The notes beneath the pieces were generated by a model that worked only from the letters and a program-made list of their open reading frames with translations, searched no databases and had not been told where the DNA came from. A program made the translations under genes and the position numbers. Shown one piece after another: positions 484-33,797 of a DNA stretch of 35,641 nucleotides; positions within the stretch are counted from its first letter, which is position 1, and the number at the start of each line of letters is the position of its first letter. Source of the DNA: an uncultured Lachnospiraceae bacterium (GTDB lineage: Bacteria; Bacillota; Clostridia; Lachnospirales; Lachnospiraceae); contig CADCII010000024.1 in assembly GCA_902801515.1 (NCBI GenBank), forward strand, positions 1 through 35,641, given 5' to 3'.

Positions 484-586
484 CTCTTTATTACAACTGC
501 GCAGCCGGCTCAGGCGGGCCACGGTTGTACTCCTGTCCGGACAATGGGAGCGTCATATTGTTTTGTTCAGAAAAGGAGGGGAAGGT

Positions 587-2380
587 ATGAATCAGGATAT
601 CTTAAGTGCGATTAACGGAGAAGTATTCGGAGTATGGTTTCTGATCGGGGCCGCTCTGGTCTTCTGGATGCAGGCTGGTTTTGCCATGGTGGAAGCCGGC
701 TTTACCAGAGCCAAGAACACAGGCAATATCCTTATGAAGAACCTGATGGATTTCTGCATCGGCACTCCGATGTTTATCCTGATTGGTTTCAGTCTGTTTC
801 TCGGAGAAGACATTGCGGGAATAATCGGAAAACCAGGTTTTGATATTTTTACAGACTACGCTCATTTTGACTGGTCTAATTTTGTTTTTAATCTTGTCTT
901 CTGCGCAACGACGGCAACTATCGTGTCAGGTGCCATGGCAGAGCGCACGAAATTCTTATCCTATTGCATCTATTCGGCTGTGATCTCTGCGGTTATCTAC
1001 CCCATCGAAGCCCACTGGACCTGGGGCGGCGGATGGCTGGCACAGATCGGTTTCCATGATTTTGCCGGTTCCAACTGTATTCACATGGTCGGAGGCATCT
1101 GCGCACTGATCGGTGCAGCTATCCTCGGGCCCCGTATCGGTAAATTCTCAAAAGACAAGAGCGGCCGCATTACCAAAGTGAATGCTTTTCCTGGCCACAA
1201 CCTTCCCATCGGCTGTCTGGGCGTCTTCATCCTGTGGCTTGGCTGGTACGGTTTCAATGGTGCAGCAGCAGTAACAGTCGAGGAAATGGGATCTATCTTT
1301 GTCACTACTACTATCGCTCCGTCTGTTGCCACGGTAGTATGTATGGTCTTCACATGGATCCGTTATGGGAAGCCCGATGTGTCCATGTGCCTCAACGCTT
1401 CCCTTGCAGGCCTGGTTGCCATAACCGCACCATGTGATGTCTGCGACGCCTTCGGTGCAATCGTAATCGGTGCTGTATCAGGTGTCCTCGTTGTGTTTGG
1501 CGTATGGCTCCTGGACAATGTACTTCGTGTGGATGACCCAGTCGGTGCGGTAGCCGTGCATTGCCTCAATGGAATCTGGGGAACGATCGCTGTCGGTCTG
1601 TTCGCAACCTCCAGTGCACCGGCATATGCAAGAGGGATAGGTGACGGAGCAGGATTTGGTGCCAACCAGATTGCCGGAGCCGGTCTGTTCTACGGCGGCG
1701 GTTTCAAACAGCTCGGAATCCAGTTCATTGGTATGGGAGCCACTGCAGCATGGACAGCAGTTGCCATTACGATCGCATTTGTTGTGATCAGAGCCATCTT
1801 TGGACTGCGGGCAAGCGAAGAAGAAGAGATTCTCGGCCTGGACAGCACAGAGCACGGACTTCCTTCAGCTTATGCCGGATTCCAGATCGTGGACCTGTCC
1901 ACCGGAATGCAGGTTAATGAAAACACTGACCTTGGAGAAGATTCCTACGAGAATGCCAGCGAATTCAAGAAAAACGCAGCAGTCCCTGTCGTCCAGTCTG
2001 CTCCTGCCGACCACGAAGCAGTTACCGGCATGTACAAGGTAACCATCATCGCGAAACATTCCCGCTATGAGAGGCTGAAGAATGCGTTGAATGACCTTGG
2101 TGTAACCGGCATGACTGTCACCCAGGTTATGGGGTGCGGTATTCAGAAGGGTGCAGGCGAACGTTACCGCGGAGTTGAACTGGATGTAAACGTACTGCCT
2201 AAGATGAAGGTTGAGGTGATCATCGGAAACATCCCGATCGACAGTGTAATTGAAACAGCGAAGAAAGCCCTGTATACCGGCCATATCGGCGATGGCAAGA
2301 TCTTTGTTTACAATGTCCAGAGAGTAATCAAGGTCCGCACAGGCGAAGAAGACCTTGCAGCTCTGAAAGATGTTGAATAA
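587..2380 (+). CDS. Ammonium transporter fused to a C-terminal PII (GlnK-type) domain
   Basis: This 597-residue protein joins an Amt channel (about residues 8-415) to a complete PII domain (about 482-597). Amt hallmarks are visible: the phenylalanine/ATT segment near 101-115, the twin pore histidines H166 (in CIHMVGG) and H325 (in VHCLNGIWG), and WYGFNGA near 220. The PII part has a T-loop with the tyrosine Y527 in ERYRGVE and the C-terminal signature TGHIGDGKIF at 564-573. Amt normally forms trimers blocked by a separate trimeric GlnK; here the regulator is tethered by a polar linker of about 65 residues. I chose ATG 587 because AAGGAGG lies 7 nt before it; an in-frame TTG at 563 lacks a ribosome-binding site. 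The gene stands alone and ends at a strong terminator. Confidence 0.95.
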   Translation: MNQDILSAINGEVFGVWFLIGAALVFWMQAGFAMVEAGFTRAKNTGNILMKNLMDFCIGTPMFILIGFSLFLGEDIAGIIGKPGFDIFTDYAHFDWSNFVFNLVFCATTATIVSGAMAERTKFLSYCIYSAVISAVIYPIEAHWTWGGGWLAQIGFHDFAGSNCIHMVGGICALIGAAILGPRIGKFSKDKSGRITKVNAFPGHNLPIGCLGVFILWLGWYGFNGAAAVTVEEMGSIFVTTTIAPSVATVVCMVFTWIRYGKPDVSMCLNASLAGLVAITAPCDVCDAFGAIVIGAVSGVLVVFGVWLLDNVLRVDDPVGAVAVHCLNGIWGTIAVGLFATSSAPAYARGIGDGAGFGANQIAGAGLFYGGGFKQLGIQFIGMGATAAWTAVAITIAFVVIRAIFGLRASEEEEILGLDSTEHGLPSAYAGFQIVDLSTGMQVNENTDLGEDSYENASEFKKNAAVPVVQSAPADHEAVTGMYKVTIIAKHSRYERLKNALNDLGVTGMTVTQVMGCGIQKGAGERYRGVELDVNVLPKMKVEVIIGNIPIDSVIETAKKALYTGHIGDGKIFVYNVQRVIKVRTGEEDLAALKDVE

Positions 2381-8000: not shown

Positions 8001-8576
8001 TTGAACGAATCCGAGTATCAGAATAATAATGCAGAGCCGGATAATAACGGCAGGCCTGATAATAGTGCAGGGCCGAACAGTCCGGATGACTACAGCAGGC
8101 TGAAGGGAACGGTAGCAAGACGGAATATGGCTACCGCGTCATTAGTATGCGCAATCATCGCACTTGTGACGATCCAGTTCTTCTTCATTTCCCTTCCGCT
8201 GGGCGGAACATCCGTGATCCTTGCGCTGCTCTCCCGCGGGAGCGGAAGAACGCATGGCAGAGCCCGTATTGCCGTGATCGGCGGTACTGCGGCCTTGGTG
8301 CTCAGTTCTCTGATCACTGTATATGCAGTCCGTCAGGTATATACCAATCCTGCGCTCCGCGCCCAGGTAGAACAATTGTACAACTACTACACCGGACAGA
8401 TCCCGGGTATCACGGATAAGGCAGCAGAATCCGAAGAAGAAGAGCCTCTCTCTGAGAGTCCGCAGGAGATCCTGCAGAATATCCTTTCAGGTGAATATCG
8501 TGAGCACCAGGCTCAGCAGCAGATATCCGGTTCCAAGCCTGAAGGCATATCAGATAACGGGGGGGTCTACATATGA
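8001..8576 (+). CDS. DUF4190-like small membrane protein
   Basis: The 191-residue protein has an Asn/Asp/Pro-rich hydrophilic N-terminus (1-33), two hydrophobic segments at about 46-68 and 86-106 separated by a basic loop, and an acidic, Gln-rich C-terminal tail. The layout (NMATASLVCAIIALV then GGTAALVLSS) resembles DUF4190 proteins, whose function is unknown. The start is TTG 8001 with GGAG 8 nt upstream; no ATG in frame gives a better fit. It ends in an ATGA overlap with the DUF975 gene, so the two are translationally coupled and probably act together at the membrane. Confidence 0.7.
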   Translation: MNESEYQNNNAEPDNNGRPDNSAGPNSPDDYSRLKGTVARRNMATASLVCAIIALVTIQFFFISLPLGGTSVILALLSRGSGRTHGRARIAVIGGTAALVLSSLITVYAVRQVYTNPALRAQVEQLYNYYTGQIPGITDKAAESEEEEPLSESPQEILQNILSGEYREHQAQQQISGSKPEGISDNGGVYI

Positions 8577-9331
8577 TAAAGAGAAGTCTCTCCCAGATAC
8601 GCACAGATTCCAGGGATGCACTGGCAGGCAATTACAGTGTGTGCTTTATCGCACTGTTCTTCATGTTCATAGCCGACATAGCCATCTCGCAGATCATGTA
8701 TCTGCTTCCTCTCAGAGGCGCACCCGGAGTCTTCGTAATCCTGACAGATGTCATTTACAGCATCCCGGGATCTCTGATCATGACCATGCTGCAGGCAGGA
8801 TTCCTGTTCCTGTGCCTGAACGTTGCCCGCTACGGACATCCGACATTCAATGATACCCTGCTGGCATTCCGCTATGATCCGCCCAAGGCAGTCGGCCTGT
8901 GTCTGGTCATCGGCGTGATCGATATCATCTGTTCGCTGCCCTTAAGCTATGCGTTAACTGATTTCATAATCGAACTTACTCCTGCGATCCAGGGCAGCAG
9001 AGTATCATCCCTGCTTCAGAGCCTTGGCTTTGTCATACTCGGTGCACTGTTCTCCATGGTACTGCGCGTGATATTCGCCTATCCGTTCAGCCAGGCACTG
9101 ATGCTCTACATCGATCATCAGGAATTCTCAGGTACAGAATGCCTGATGAAGAGCCGCGAACTGATGCGGGGCCAGATCATCCGTTATCTGACTCTGGAAC
9201 TTTCCTTCATCGGATATCTCGCACTGGCAATCCTGAGCCTGGGCATCGGCCTGATCTGGGTCATCCCTTACATGAACGTCTCCCGGGCTAATTTCTATAT
9301 GGATCTGACCGGGACGTACAAACCTTACTAA
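8573..9331 (+). CDS. DUF975 family integral membrane protein
   Basis: The 252-residue protein is strongly hydrophobic with about five to six membrane segments. The C-terminal pattern ELSFIGYLALAILSLGIGL followed by WVIPYMNVSRANFYMDL is diagnostic of DUF975 (YciC/YesK-like) proteins of Firmicutes. No biochemical role is established for the family. The start ATG overlaps the TGA of the preceding gene. A strong hairpin terminator begins 38 nt after the stop and is also the first unit of the 62-bp hairpin array. Confidence 0.85.
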   Translation: MIKRSLSQIRTDSRDALAGNYSVCFIALFFMFIADIAISQIMYLLPLRGAPGVFVILTDVIYSIPGSLIMTMLQAGFLFLCLNVARYGHPTFNDTLLAFRYDPPKAVGLCLVIGVIDIICSLPLSYALTDFIIELTPAIQGSRVSSLLQSLGFVILGALFSMVLRVIFAYPFSQALMLYIDHQEFSGTECLMKSRELMRGQIIRYLTLELSFIGYLALAILSLGIGLIWVIPYMNVSRANFYMDLTGTYKPY

Positions 9332-9368
9332 GACACTTTATACATTCTTAAATTAACATTGATATATG

Positions 9369-9418
9369 CCGCGGGTCAGAACCGGAGTTTTTCTCCGTTC
9401 TGACCCGCGGTATTTTTG
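9369..9418 (+). terminator. Terminator after the DUF975 gene (unit 0 of the hairpin array)
   Basis: CCGCGGGTCAGAAC pairs with GTTCTGACCCGCGG, with an inner GGAG/CTCC stem, one bulged C and a TTTTT loop. The stem is followed by TATTTTTG. This makes a convincing intrinsic terminator. The same 40-nt hairpin recurs without change at 9928-9967. Confidence 0.8.
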
Positions 9419-9967
9419 CCTTATGTCTTCACGCGGGTCTAATCTTTCACTTTTCTTCATTCTGACCCGCGCGACTTGCCTTTCAATTTTCTTCGCGGGT
9501 CTGTTCCTTCGCTTTTCCCCATTCTGACCCGCGCGGCTTGCCTTTCAATTTTCTTCGTGGATCTAATGCTTCGTTTTTTGCCATTCTGACCCGCGCGACT
9601 TGCTTTTCATTTTTCTTCGCGGGTCTGTTCCTTCGCTTTTCTTCATTCTGACCCGCGCAACTTGCTTTTCATTTTTCTTCGCGGGTCTGTTCCTTCACTT
9701 TTCTTCATTCTGACCCGCGCGGCTTGCCTTTCATTTTTCTTCGCGGGTCTGTTCCTTCGCTTTTCTTCATTCTGACCCGCGCGACTTGCTTTTCTATTTT
9801 CTTCGCGGGTCTGTTCCTTCGCTTTTCTTCATTCTGACCCACGCGACTTGCTTTTCATTTTTCTTCGCGGGTCTGTTCCTTCACTTTCCTTCATTCTGAC
9901 CCGCGCAACTCGCTTTTTAATATTTAACGCGGGTCAGAACCGGAGTTTTTCTCCGTTCTGACCCGCG
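9370..9967. repeat. Ten-unit hairpin array with exact 62-bp period
   Basis: The right arm GACCCGCG starts at 9402 and recurs every 62 bp ten times, to 9960, with no indel. Each unit is a 40-nt inverted repeat (arm CGCGGGTC starting at 9370+62k, arm GACCCGCG) plus a 22-nt T-rich linker. The first and last units are identical, fully folded 40-nt hairpins. The eight inner units keep only the outer 8-bp arms around a pyrimidine-rich 24-nt loop. Small arm lesions are seen in unit 3 (left arm CGTGGATC) and unit 7 (right arm GACCCACG). The array fills the gap between convergent genes and has no open reading frame of note. Confidence 0.95.
9928..9967 (-). terminator. Hairpin downstream of thrH (last unit of the array)
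   Basis: This 40-nt hairpin is identical to the one at 9370-9409 and lies 16 nt after the thrH stop. On the minus strand it is followed by TTAAATATTAAAAAG, which is AT-rich but not a clean U-tract. It probably ends thrH transcription, with the other nine hairpins behind it. Confidence 0.6.
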
Positions 9968-9983
9968 TGACTTATTTCTATAA

Positions 9984-10589
9984 TTACTTCTTCAATTCTT
10001 CCTTGATCGCTGCCAGGAATTCATCATACCCTTCAAACGCCTGAAGATCCGGATTGTCTTCGATGATCTTAGGAGTGCTGCGGAACAGGAAACCTGTCCG
10101 ACTCGCACGGATCATGTCCAGATCGTTATAGGAATCGCCTGCGGCGATGGTATCGTATCCGATAGACTGCAGTGCTTTGACTGTGCTCAGTTTAGAATTC
10201 TCGATGCGCATCTTAAAGCCCGTGATCTCGCCGTCTTCCGCCACATCCAGCGTATTGCAGAACAGGGTCGGACGGCCAAGTTTTTCCATCAGAGGAGATG
10301 CGAACTGCTCAAATGTGTCGGAGATCAGGATGACCTGGGCGACAGAGCGAAGTTCATCGAGAAACTCACGCGCGCCTTCCAGCGGCTGGATCTTTGCGAT
10401 GGTCGCCTGAATCTCTTTCAGTCCCAGTCCGTGTTCTTTCAGGATCCCAAGTCTCCAGTTCATCAGCTTGTTGTAATCCGGCTCATCCCTTGTGGTCCTC
10501 TTCAGTTCCGGGATACCGCTTGCTTTGGAAAACTCGATCCAGATCTCAGGTACCAGGACCCCTTCCACATCAAGGCATACTATATTCAT
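9984..10589 (-). CDS. thrH: ThrH: phosphoserine phosphatase / homoserine phosphotransferase
   Basis: The 201-residue HAD-superfamily protein begins with CLDVEGVLVPEIW, in which D7 is the predicted nucleophile; a glutamate occupies the +2 position, as in ThrH. It also has LISDTF (HAD motif II) and AAGDSYNDLDM (motif III/IV). The pattern and length match ThrH of Pseudomonas, which dephosphorylates phosphoserine and can transfer phosphate to homoserine. AGGAGG lies directly upstream of ATG 10589. It follows the ydjH-like gene by 131 nt on the same strand; no firm promoter was found in that gap, so co-transcription is possible. Confidence 0.9.
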   Translation of the reverse strand: MNIVCLDVEGVLVPEIWIEFSKASGIPELKRTTRDEPDYNKLMNWRLGILKEHGLGLKEIQATIAKIQPLEGAREFLDELRSVAQVILISDTFEQFASPLMEKLGRPTLFCNTLDVAEDGEITGFKMRIENSKLSTVKALQSIGYDTIAAGDSYNDLDMIRASRTGFLFRSTPKIIEDNPDLQAFEGYDEFLAAIKEELKK

Positions 10590-15206: not shown

Positions 15207-17801
15207 TTACGCTCCTGCCTTACCGCCGGCCATATCTGATCTCATATGGCACTGCTTATACTTCTTACCGCTTCCGCACCAGCACAGGTCGTTCGGGTAG
15301 ATCTTCTTCTTTTCTCTCTTCTTCGGAGCCTTGACTGCCGTGTCATCACGGTTGGTGCCGGTCACCTTGGCGACTTCTTCACGCTCGACCTTCTCCTGGA
15401 CCTTGACGTGATACATCATCTTCAGAGTATCTTCCTGGATCGATGTGGTCATGGCATTGAACATGTCATAGCCTTCCATCTTGTACATGACCTTCGGATC
15501 CTTCTGTCCGTAAGCTGCAAGTCCGATACCCTGGCGAAGCTGATCCATGTCGTCGATGTGGTTCATCCAGTGACGGTCGACCGATCTCAGAAGAACGACA
15601 CGCTCGATCTCACGCACATCCATGCCGGCTTCTGTCAGTTCTGCTTCCTTTGCGTCATACAGCGCATTGGCGTCAGCAATCATCTTATCCTTCAGCTGCT
15701 GTGTGCTCAGTCCGTTCACATACTCTTCGGTGATCGGAGGAAGCGGAATGATCGGGCGGATGTAATCATTGAGTTCGCGCAGGTTCCATCCGGATCCCTC
15801 ATCCTCTCCGGCAGCACACAGATCCACATAGCTGTTGATCGTATCATCGATCATCTTGACGACCGACTCACGCATGTTTTCGCCGTCCAGGACTTTACGT
15901 CTCTCAGCATAAATAATCTCACGCTGTTCGTTGTTGACCTGGTCGTATTCCAGCAGGCTCTTTCTGATCGCAAAGTTGTTGGACTCGATCTTCTTCTGCG
16001 CTTTCTCGATGGCGGAGGACAGCATCTTGTGTTTGATCTCCTCGCCTTCCTGGACTCCCAGGGTCTTGAAGGTCGACATCATCTTCTCAGATCCGAACAG
16101 TCTCATCAGATCGTCTTCCAGGGAGATGTAGAACTGGGATTCACCCGGATCACCCTGACGGCCGGAACGGCCGCGCAGCTGGTTGTCGATACGGCGGGAC
16201 TCATGGCGCTCGGTACCGATGATCTTCAGACCGCCTGCAGCCCTGGACTCTTCGTCCAGTTTGATATCCGTACCACGGCCTGCCATGTTGGTAGCGATGG
16301 TAACTGCACCGTGAACACCGGCGTCCTTGACGATCTCAGCTTCGAGTTCATGGAACTTCGCGTTCAGGACATTGTGCTGGATGCCTTCACGTCTCAGCAT
16401 GCCGGACAGCAGTTCCGAGACTTCGATGGTGATAGTGCCGACCAGAACAGGCTGCTGTTTCGCATGAGCTTCCTTGACTGCCTCGACGACTGCACGGTAC
16501 TTTTCCTTCTTGGTCATGTAGACCGCGTCATCATGATCAACTCTTGCGACCGGCTTATTGGTCGGGATCTCGATAACGTCCATTCCGTAGATATCACGGA
16601 ATTCTTCTTCCTCAGTCAGAGCGGTACCGGTCATGCCTGCCTTCTTCTTATATTTGTTGAAGAAGTTCTGGAACGTGATCGTAGCAAGAGTCTTGGACTC
16701 TCTCTTGATCTTGACATGTTCCTTCGCCTCGATCGCCTGATGCAGACCGTCGGAATAACGTCTGCCGGGCATGATACGTCCGGTGAACTCATCAACGATC
16801 AGGACCTCATCGTCCTTGACCACATAGTCCTGATCCCTGTGCATCAGATTGTGGGCACGCAGAGCCAGGATGATATTATTCTGGATCTCAATATTCTCCG
16901 GATCCGACAGGTTCTGGATCTGGAAGAACTTCTCACAGCGGGTGATACCCTCAGCCGTAAGAGTGACAACCTTGTCCTTCTCATTTACGATAAAATCACC
17001 GGTCTCAGTGATCTCTTCGCCCATGATAGCGGTCATCTTCGTGACTTCGCCGCTCGCTTCACCTCTCTTGAGCTGACGTGCGAGAATATCGCAGGTCTCA
17101 TAGAGCTTGGTGGACTTGCCGCTCTGTCCGGAAATGATCAGAGGAGTACGTGCTTCATCGATCAGGACCGAGTCGACCTCATCGATGATGGCGTAGACCA
17201 GATCTCTCTGGACCAGTTTCTCCTTGTAGATGACCATGTTGTCACGAAGATAATCGAAGCCGTCTTCGTTATTCGTGATATAGGTGATATCCTTCGCATA
17301 CTCGGCTCTTCTCTCATCCGACTCCATGCTGTTCTGGATGCAGCCGCATGTCAGGCCGAGGAATTCATGGACCGGGCCCATCCAGTCACGGTCACGCTTA
17401 GCCAGGTAGTCATTGACCGTTACGATATGGACGCCTTCGCCGGTCAGTGCGTTCAGGTATGCCGGAAGGGTCGATACAAGCGTCTTACCTTCACCTGTTC
17501 TCATCTCAGCGATACGGCCCTGATGCAGGATGATGCCGCCGATGACCTGAACCCTGTACGGTTTCAGTCCGATGACTCTCCATGCAGCCTCCCTTACCGT
17601 AGCAAACGCTTCCGGAAGGATATCGTCAAGACTCTCTCCATTCGCATACCGCTGCTTAAACTCAGCAGTCTTACCTTTAAGTTCTTCATCTGTGAGCTTC
17701 GAATAGGAATCCTCGAGGCCCATGACTTTATCGACGATCGGCTCAATCTTCTTCAGCTCACGCTGAGAATGTGTGCCGAACAGTTTTTCCATAAAACCCA
17801 T
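15207..17801 (-). CDS. secA: Preprotein translocase ATPase SecA
   Basis: SecA drives post-translational export through SecYEG. The 864-residue protein has Walker A GEGKT (103-107), the DEAD-box-like [17 protein letters not shown], the PPXD region, helicase motifs such as [11 protein letters not shown] and [11 protein letters not shown], and the C-terminal zinc-binding SEC-C tail (CWCGSG and QCH). Length is normal. AAAGGAG lies 10 nt before ATG 17801. A strong promoter is at 17885-17913, and prfB follows 2 nt after the stop. Confidence 0.98.
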
Positions 17802-17884
17802 ATGTACAATACTCCTTTATCTGCTTTATGATCATGCTGTCTGTGCCGCCCTGTCAGAAGGCAGGATACCGCATAATCAGAGTT

Positions 17885-21194: not shown

Positions 21195-21261
21195 AGGTCT
21201 GAATTGCTTGTCAGACCTCTTCTGACCCGCACTGCCATTCTGCTTTTTGCAGCTCCGGGTC
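21195..21261 (-). promoter_or_regulatory. Two hairpins in the gap between nadE and fhs
   Basis: One stem is AGGTCTGA (21195-21202) with TCAGACCT (21211-21218). The other is GACCCG (21224-21229) with CGGGTC (21256-21261), with a nested CTGC/GCAG stem. The outer one may end nadE transcription. Both would be in the fhs leader if transcription reads through. No known riboswitch consensus was recognised. Confidence 0.45.
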
Positions 21262-33257: not shown

Positions 33258-33285
33258 AACTAAATCAAATCCCTTCTATATGGTT

Positions 33286-33368
33286 TGAACAGGTGCCTGT
33301 CACTTGTTCAAGTTTGCACCAGTGCCTGTCACTTGTTCACTTTTGAACAGGTGCCTGTCACTTGTTCA
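33286..33368. repeat. REP-like array B, three 25-nt copies on a 29-bp period
   Basis: Copies start at 33286, 33315 and 33344, each 25 nt with 4-nt spacers. Copies 1 and 3 are identical (TGAACAGGTGCC...TTGTTCA); copy 2 has a changed left arm (TGCACCAG). The rest of the 33258-33844 gap shows no gene that I can support; a possible extended -10 is at 33726-33731. Confidence 0.9.
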
Positions 33369-33725
33369 ATATTATCGTTTGGTATATATGTGGTAAGGCA
33401 TGCTCTGTTACAGTGTTGATTCTGTTTTTTAACATGCTCTTTTACGACTCACAACAGCCGCGGCAGCATCCGCCGAGTCTTTCGATAACTGCCGACCTCG
33501 TCAACCTGTTACGGTCCTGGCGCTAACAACACTTCCACCCTCCCAAAGAAGTGTGGTTTTAATGTCATGCTGTGTCCTGTATCTGCAACGCCTGAGATAT
33601 AGCGGCTATACCTGAACCTGCATAACATGGGTATTCTACTGCGATACGCCCCGGAACGCAAATAAAATCGTGCATAAAAACAGAAAACAATACTACAGCC
33701 TCTGCGAATCAAGTTATTAATATGA

Positions 33726-33731: not shown

Positions 33732-33746
33732 GGACAGGCGACTATC

Positions 33747-33797
33747 TGAACGAGTGACTGAACGAGTGACTGTGAACGAGTGACAGGCACTTGTGTA
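33747..33797. repeat. REP-like cluster C
   Basis: TGAACGAGTGAC occurs three times (33747, 33759, 33773). The third copy continues into a full 25-nt element (33773-33797) ending CACTTGTGTA, with one arm degraded. It lies in the probable leader of the histidine phosphatase gene. Confidence 0.85.

Follow-up and report, generated by a model that had tools for sequence, protein, structure and literature searches.

What kind of element is a row of ten hairpins that repeats between two convergent genes with a period of exactly 62 bp and without a single indel? The row lies in a window of 35,641 nucleotides, by which we mean the whole stretch of DNA that was analysed, from an uncultured Lachnospiraceae bacterium (Table 1). 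Its geometry, as described in a first-pass annotation of the sequence, was borne out: every unit spans 40 nt, and the right arms begin at 9402 and then at each 62 bp up to 9960 (n=10). The right arm reads GACCCGCG in nine of the ten units (GACCCACG in the exception, at 9836), and the left arm reads CGCGGGTC, likewise in nine of ten (CGTGGATC in the exception, at 9556). TRF returned a period of 62 with 8.7 copies, 86% matches, 0% indels and a score of 755, as well as an overlapping row of period 29; with this score and no indels, the array is not an arrangement produced by chance. The first and last hairpins are identical, as had been claimed, and nearly fully paired (about -31 kcal/mol); in the inner eight units pairing takes place chiefly through the outer 8 bp. 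The motif AAGGAA was indeed found on the minus strand in six of those eight.

Conventional assignments gave no name to the array. No Rfam family matched the region 9300-10050 at E values up to 1, the 252-aa protein encoded to the left had no NCBIfam match, and no target-site duplication was seen by eye. A CRISPR array, with identical repeats and unique spacers, could be ruled out, since all parts of the 62-bp unit repeat, at the 86% of matches given above. DNA curvature by means of phased A-tracts found no support in the one unit checked by eye, where the A-tracts are out of phase.

The own genome (G000) carries the element at six places, i.e. the window array and five further ones. Blast of this genome detected related arrays at three further places, and a pattern search in which 22-52 nt were allowed added a solitary unit; this search rendered 29 forward matches, 28 of them of 34 nt and one, elsewhere, of 38 nt. 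A decayed copy is found in the window itself, between the 3' end of a nadE-like gene and the 5' end of an fhs-like gene, and there GGGTC again comes 33 bp after GACCC. One of the arrays of the own genome contains a short masked stretch of four N (L173:10018-10117).

Table 1. Positions of the window array, its parts and neighbours, and of the further copies in the own genome (positions without a contig prefix are those of the window)
Feature	Position	Strand	Remarks
Whole array, ten units, period 62 bp	9370..9967	-	minus strand is the purine-rich strand (72%)
Unit 1, nearly perfect 40-nt hairpin	9370..9409		plus strand continues with GTATTTTTG
Eight inner units	9432..9905	-	conserved arms; purine-rich interior mostly unpaired on the minus strand
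Unit 10, identical to unit 1	9928..9967		
Left flanking gene, 252-aa protein	8573..9331	+	stops 39 bp short of the array
Right flanking gene, thrH-like phosphoserine phosphatase/homoserine phosphotransferase	9984..10589	-	end 17 bp from the array
Decayed copy	21195..21261	-	one unit AGGTC...GACCC (34 nt) and a GGGTC half-site; E 9.8e-4, covariance model
Further array	C11:13040-13668		blast/pattern search
Further array	C11:82471-82876		blast/pattern search
Further array	C27:14955-15273		blast/pattern search
Solitary unit	C11:55341		added by pattern search

Other features of the window were recorded in passing. Three 29-bp hairpin units with TTGAACA-type arms are located around GTGCCTGTCAC (33283-33369), with GAACGAGTGA repeats nearby (33746-33784), and this second small hairpin repeat looks like another REP-type family. 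Rfam-type searches elsewhere in the window detected a glmS ribozyme on the minus strand (33385-33535, 69.6 bits) and a tRNA. An ammonium transporter with a C-terminally fused P-II regulator domain is encoded at 563-2380 (+), and an 861-aa open frame at 15246-17831 (+), probably an effect of composition, lies antisense to the 864-aa secA gene.

On its purine-rich strand the unit can be described as GGGTCAGA, about 20 nt and (C/T)(A/T)GACCC, with the starts of GGGTC and GACCC 29 bp apart, and it is followed by a purine-rich linker, often GCGnGAAGAAAA. Arrays of such units were also found in a congener (G011), in a member of a second genus of the family (G245) and in a Lachnospiraceae MAG (G451). 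The 22 clusters compared, from the four genomes, were preselected for the 29-bp distance: each had to contain three or more exact half-sites and at least one pair 29 bp apart. In them, GGGTC was followed by the next GACCC at 29 bp for 104 of the 111 adjacent pairs (29/30 in G000, 7/8 in G011, 65/70 in G245 and 3/3 in G451). Lost through this filter were the decayed copy at 21195 and, in G451, cluster L170, whose spacings are 33 and 30. When single half-sites were considered, 214 out of 247 were matched exactly at 29 bp, and for 8 others the partner was one letter off. The distance from GACCC to the following GGGTC was 33 in 24 of 27 cases in G000 (44 in two and 48 in one), 33 in five of six in G011 (61 in the other), 21-24 in all 72 cases in G245, mostly 23 (48 cases) or 24 (19 cases), and 23 and 33, once each, in G451.

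The sequence enclosed between the arms behaves differently from the arms and their distance. Among exact-arm units the identity of the interiors falls from 75% within an array to 61% across arrays of the same genome and 36% across genomes, as against 31% after shuffling, in a comparison in which the arrays L164 and L168 were split by binning. The arm identity of 0.90 overstates the conservation, the selection of units having itself fixed 10 of the 14 letters that entered the comparison; of the unfixed letters, the three that follow the left arm are kept (A 103, G 89 and A 99 times in 108 units), and those before the right arm vary more. These results indicate that the arms and the distance between them have been retained while the rest has drifted, between genomes, to nearly the level of shuffled sequence. 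The idea that the length is under selection, put forward from the window array, therefore gains from the comparison, although exact length turns out not to be peculiar to that array, since the 29-bp spacing is common to arrays with different interiors. The arrays are, moreover, homogenised internally. Two unit types alternate in L171, L172, L173, L164 and L174; the resulting higher-order repeat, about 124, 105 or 114 bp long, is absent from the window array. The units were listed in an orientation given by a crude purine rule, which was wrong or unsure for L052 and L014; these two and L170 were excluded from a later set of 50 distinct units, 41 of which served for the consensus of the letters next to the arms, and of an earlier set of 35 distinct units 27 were used.

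A covariance model of the unit produced matches in two of 19 genomes of the genus, G000 (40) and G011 (12), counts that include some units twice, once per strand; several of the 17 genomes that did not match are incomplete. A second model produced 73 matches in G245, spread over 13 clusters, of which six lie at contig ends, with arms and arm spacing as in G000 and a period of 52 or 53 bp. Zero matches were obtained in the five congeners of G245, i.e. one of the six genomes of its genus carries the element. Exact-arm units located in clusters number 31 in G000 and 67 in G245. Searches of 397 genomes of the family and 392 of the order, with stricter filters by which weak matches are lost, rendered only the own genome and G245. 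The MAG G451 has two arrays: in one the units follow each other at 62, 52 and 62 bp, and the other is more diverged. This MAG gave no model match, and its kinship is based on the geometry, the GGGTC/GACCC arms and a linker that is similar by eye. An exact two-unit pattern with the 62-bp period was sought in 84,980 named species, a collection from which records of the own genome may be missing, and was found in four stretches: two in uncultured Clostridiales bacterium RUG829, with the unit sequences of G011, one in a Lachnospiraceae MAG, and one (L054) judged by eye to be a chance match in coding DNA.

The surroundings of thrH (about 1.5 kb) contained no exact unit in 15 congeners, and a search for empty sites in stretches of relatives, carried out with 17 proteins that flank other arrays, gave one match (26% identity) that was too distant to be of use. 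TRF was run on 40 stretches, each of 20 kb, drawn from five congeners (G018, with 400 kb of its about 2.5 Mb, and G004, G005, G009 and G010, with 100 kb apiece), and it detected no arrays of period 62 that have other arms. A period-60 row in L120 appears to consist of coding repeats, and in the congener G009 (L128:19026-19114) there is another hairpin-like repeat in tandem, with a period of 40 and arms that differ. A phage or plasmid origin was discarded: two matches to viral contigs were judged by eye to be due to chance, the window array had no match among plasmids, and one of the G245 arrays had none among phages. Homologous arrays do exist in relatives, but they are sporadic, carried by few genomes (2/19 in the genus and 1/6 in that of G245) and missing from the other relatives searched.

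Two readings that involve transcription have to be weighed against this background. The arrays could be the outcome of a neutral tandem expansion of an ordinary bidirectional terminator, which we regard as very improbable. It is true that several arrays directly follow gene ends, that four clusters (the window, L173, L168:8769 and L174) are located between convergent genes, and that units 1 and 10 are strong hairpins; by eye, a T run follows unit 1 on the plus strand, making GTATTTTTG a possible terminator of the gene at 8573-9331, and the thrH locus has an ordinary terminator-like hairpin in G011 (a short gap in G018). However, other clusters are found between codirectional genes and one between divergent genes, and a single G011 unit is placed, by eye, between two ABC-transporter-like genes. 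All clusters lie between larger ORFs, as called by a simple procedure in which short overlapping ORFs were disregarded. A scan for terminator patterns rendered only weak sites, in three inner units and on the plus strand, with unit 1 absent from the list, and the same arms and spacing recur, with divergent interiors, in other arrays and in a second genus. The existence of homologous arrays weakens the expansion of one terminator as an explanation, and the sporadic distribution together with the codirectional and divergent settings means that a stacked terminator block, one of the roles first proposed, is not a general trait of the family; a terminator function would be local at best. On the other hand, the purine-rich strand could be co-transcribed with the neighbouring genes, in which case rows of hairpins would stabilise the mRNA or punctuate it. 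The flanking genes have the purine-rich strand as their coding strand in 15 of the 17 clusters that are informative (10 of 11 clusters with both neighbours known and 5 of 6 with one, the exceptions being L214 and L210), for which the one-sided chance is about 0.001 if the clusters are independent. These orientations were counted by hand with neighbours taken by simple ORF picking (at least 90 aa, including some small ORFs), the left gene of L172 coming from a separate ORF call and that of L217 being read by eye; an 80-aa ORF lies on the opposite strand beside L164. A role in RNA may underlie the bias, but so may insertion that favours one strand, or an avoidance of T-rich hairpins inside operons.

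Pairing within the units is likewise divided. On the purine strand, the interiors pair better than shuffled ones in G000 (mean z -0.95, 26 units) and G011 (mean z -1.52, 7 units), means to which the units do not contribute independently, and this fits a hairpin formed in RNA or in single-stranded DNA; in G245 (-0.24, 30 units) and G451 (+0.32, 5 units) pairing is near chance. G-U exceeds A-C at two positions on the purine strand in G245 (36 against 3, and 27 against 2), but the bias is absent or reversed in G000 (2 against 6, and 1 against 2). The arm covariation to which the first-pass annotation looked for evidence of structure did not rise above shuffles: in two tests the score was reached in 112/500 and 75/500 of them, and the share of paired cells in 26/500 and 59/500. 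An RNA loop, in addition, requires no exact length. Selection on an RNA structure found no support in the arms, with covariation not above shuffles, and the interiors pair above chance only in G000 and G011; a role of the transcribed hairpins as such we hold to be improbable. The CsrB-like decoy, for CsrA or ribosomes, that the AAGGAA motifs had suggested was rejected as a property of the family. In a sponge RNA of the CsrB type, GGA-bearing loops are conserved across units and loci. Here, AAGGAA is present in 6 of the 9 exact-arm units of the window array and in none of the 99 elsewhere, of which 34 contain any GGA at all; with the motif confined to one array and no covariation, the sponge reading fails.

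What remains alive of the earlier proposals is a recombination or chromosome-structure site, and it is among DNA repeats that the closest likenesses are found. Like the REPINs of Pseudomonas, the family has short inverted ends at a fixed distance with a variable spacer, is extragenic, and is present both as singles and as ordered tandem clusters; a REPIN is described as a REP doublet that forms a hairpin, occurring in just these two arrangements (PMC3116915). REPIN arms are nevertheless 16-mers, as compared with about 5-8 bp here, and our family consists mainly of tandem arrays of up to ten units and has fewer copies, its model matches in G000 and G245 being below the REP copy number, which is usually above 100 per genome (PMC2817692). 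REPINs, furthermore, go with a RAYT transposase that the same repeat flanks, and assignment to them on this ground was rejected because no matching gene was found in G000, G011 or G245. Regarding Y1 transposases, to which RAYT belongs, none was detected in G011 (75% complete), G000 has only a fragment at a contig edge, G451 has two partial matches, and the matches seen in 8 of the 19 genomes of the genus do not track the arrays. G245 does encode a 252-aa Y1 protein, here labelled RAYT-like (L176:1474-2232), flanked by a different repeat that starts GGGACGGTTC, with inverted GGGACGGTTCTTTTGTCAC copies on both sides as seen by eye; this protein and the GGGACGGTTCTTTTGTCAC repeat possibly constitute a second REPIN system. 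The arrays also resemble BIMEs, in which regularly spaced sites of alternating orientation are located between genes (PMC2817692), with the difference that BIMEs alternate complete palindromic REP sequences and our family a short half-site. The GTAG- and CGTC-tagged repeats, small intergenic palindromes that are sometimes in tandem (PMC3733652), are similar as well, but neither tag is present in the consensus beside the arms. Lacking a matching RAYT and a tag, and having a lower copy number, the element is called here REPIN/BIME-like and not a member of these families. No description of such arrays in Clostridia was recognised among the titles and beginnings of abstracts covered by a search of the open-access literature, and a table in PMC12306157 names no close relative.

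The periods of the arrays are mostly 52/53, 62 and 73 bp, corresponding to about 5.0, 5.9 and 7.0 turns at 10.5 bp, and such whole-turn periods would suit a reading at the level of DNA in which the units face one side of the helix. This is suggestive only: the phasing comes from about three or four independent linker changes, linkers that do not fit are found in G000 (48 bp, a 77-bp step of 7.3 turns) and G011 (61 bp), and those of G245 differ by 1-3 bp among themselves. The periods are one of the points in favour of an architectural or anchoring array, in which a DNA-binding protein (nucleoid, gyrase-like or partition-like) would occupy the phased inverted sites in many copies, fixing or relaxing the DNA that separates transcription units; dispersal would be secondary. 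Its half-sites alternate, and BIME-2 arrays have been reported to bind DNA gyrase (PMC2817692). With few independent changes of length, however, we consider this possibility unlikely, if worth keeping in view, and the lack of matches in 17 of the 19 genomes of the genus, incomplete as several are, indicates that such an array is probably not needed.

The reading that we prefer, to which we would give an even chance, is that of a REPIN/BIME-like dispersed family whose paired DNA sites are read by a putative protein acting in trans, with local expansion into arrays. That the spacing of the half-sites is kept while the intervening sequence is free points to such a site-reading protein. It would bind the paired half-sites in DNA, either double-stranded or extruded as a hairpin, and this contact would disperse the unit, in the manner of REPINs or BIMEs, or would be itself the function of the unit. 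Slippage or unequal exchange could then lengthen the arrays by one or two units at a time, and linkers may survive where the units stay on roughly one face of the helix, i.e. at about 5, 6 or 7 turns. A stronger version, which is a speculative and rather doubtful one, would make of the arrays a DNA-architecture system of Clostridia, with the trans protein placed on inverted GGGTCAGA half-sites 29 bp apart, whole-turn periods (5, 6 or 7) aligning its copies on one face, and arrays gained and lost together with that protein.

The row of hairpins thus belongs to a family with a measurable rule, namely a fixed spacing of the half-sites and a period near whole helical turns. Its sporadic distribution means that the protein that reads or moves the unit can be sought by comparing carrier with non-carrier genomes. 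If that reader is not a Y1 transposase, bacteria would have a second way to spread or use REPIN-like arrays.
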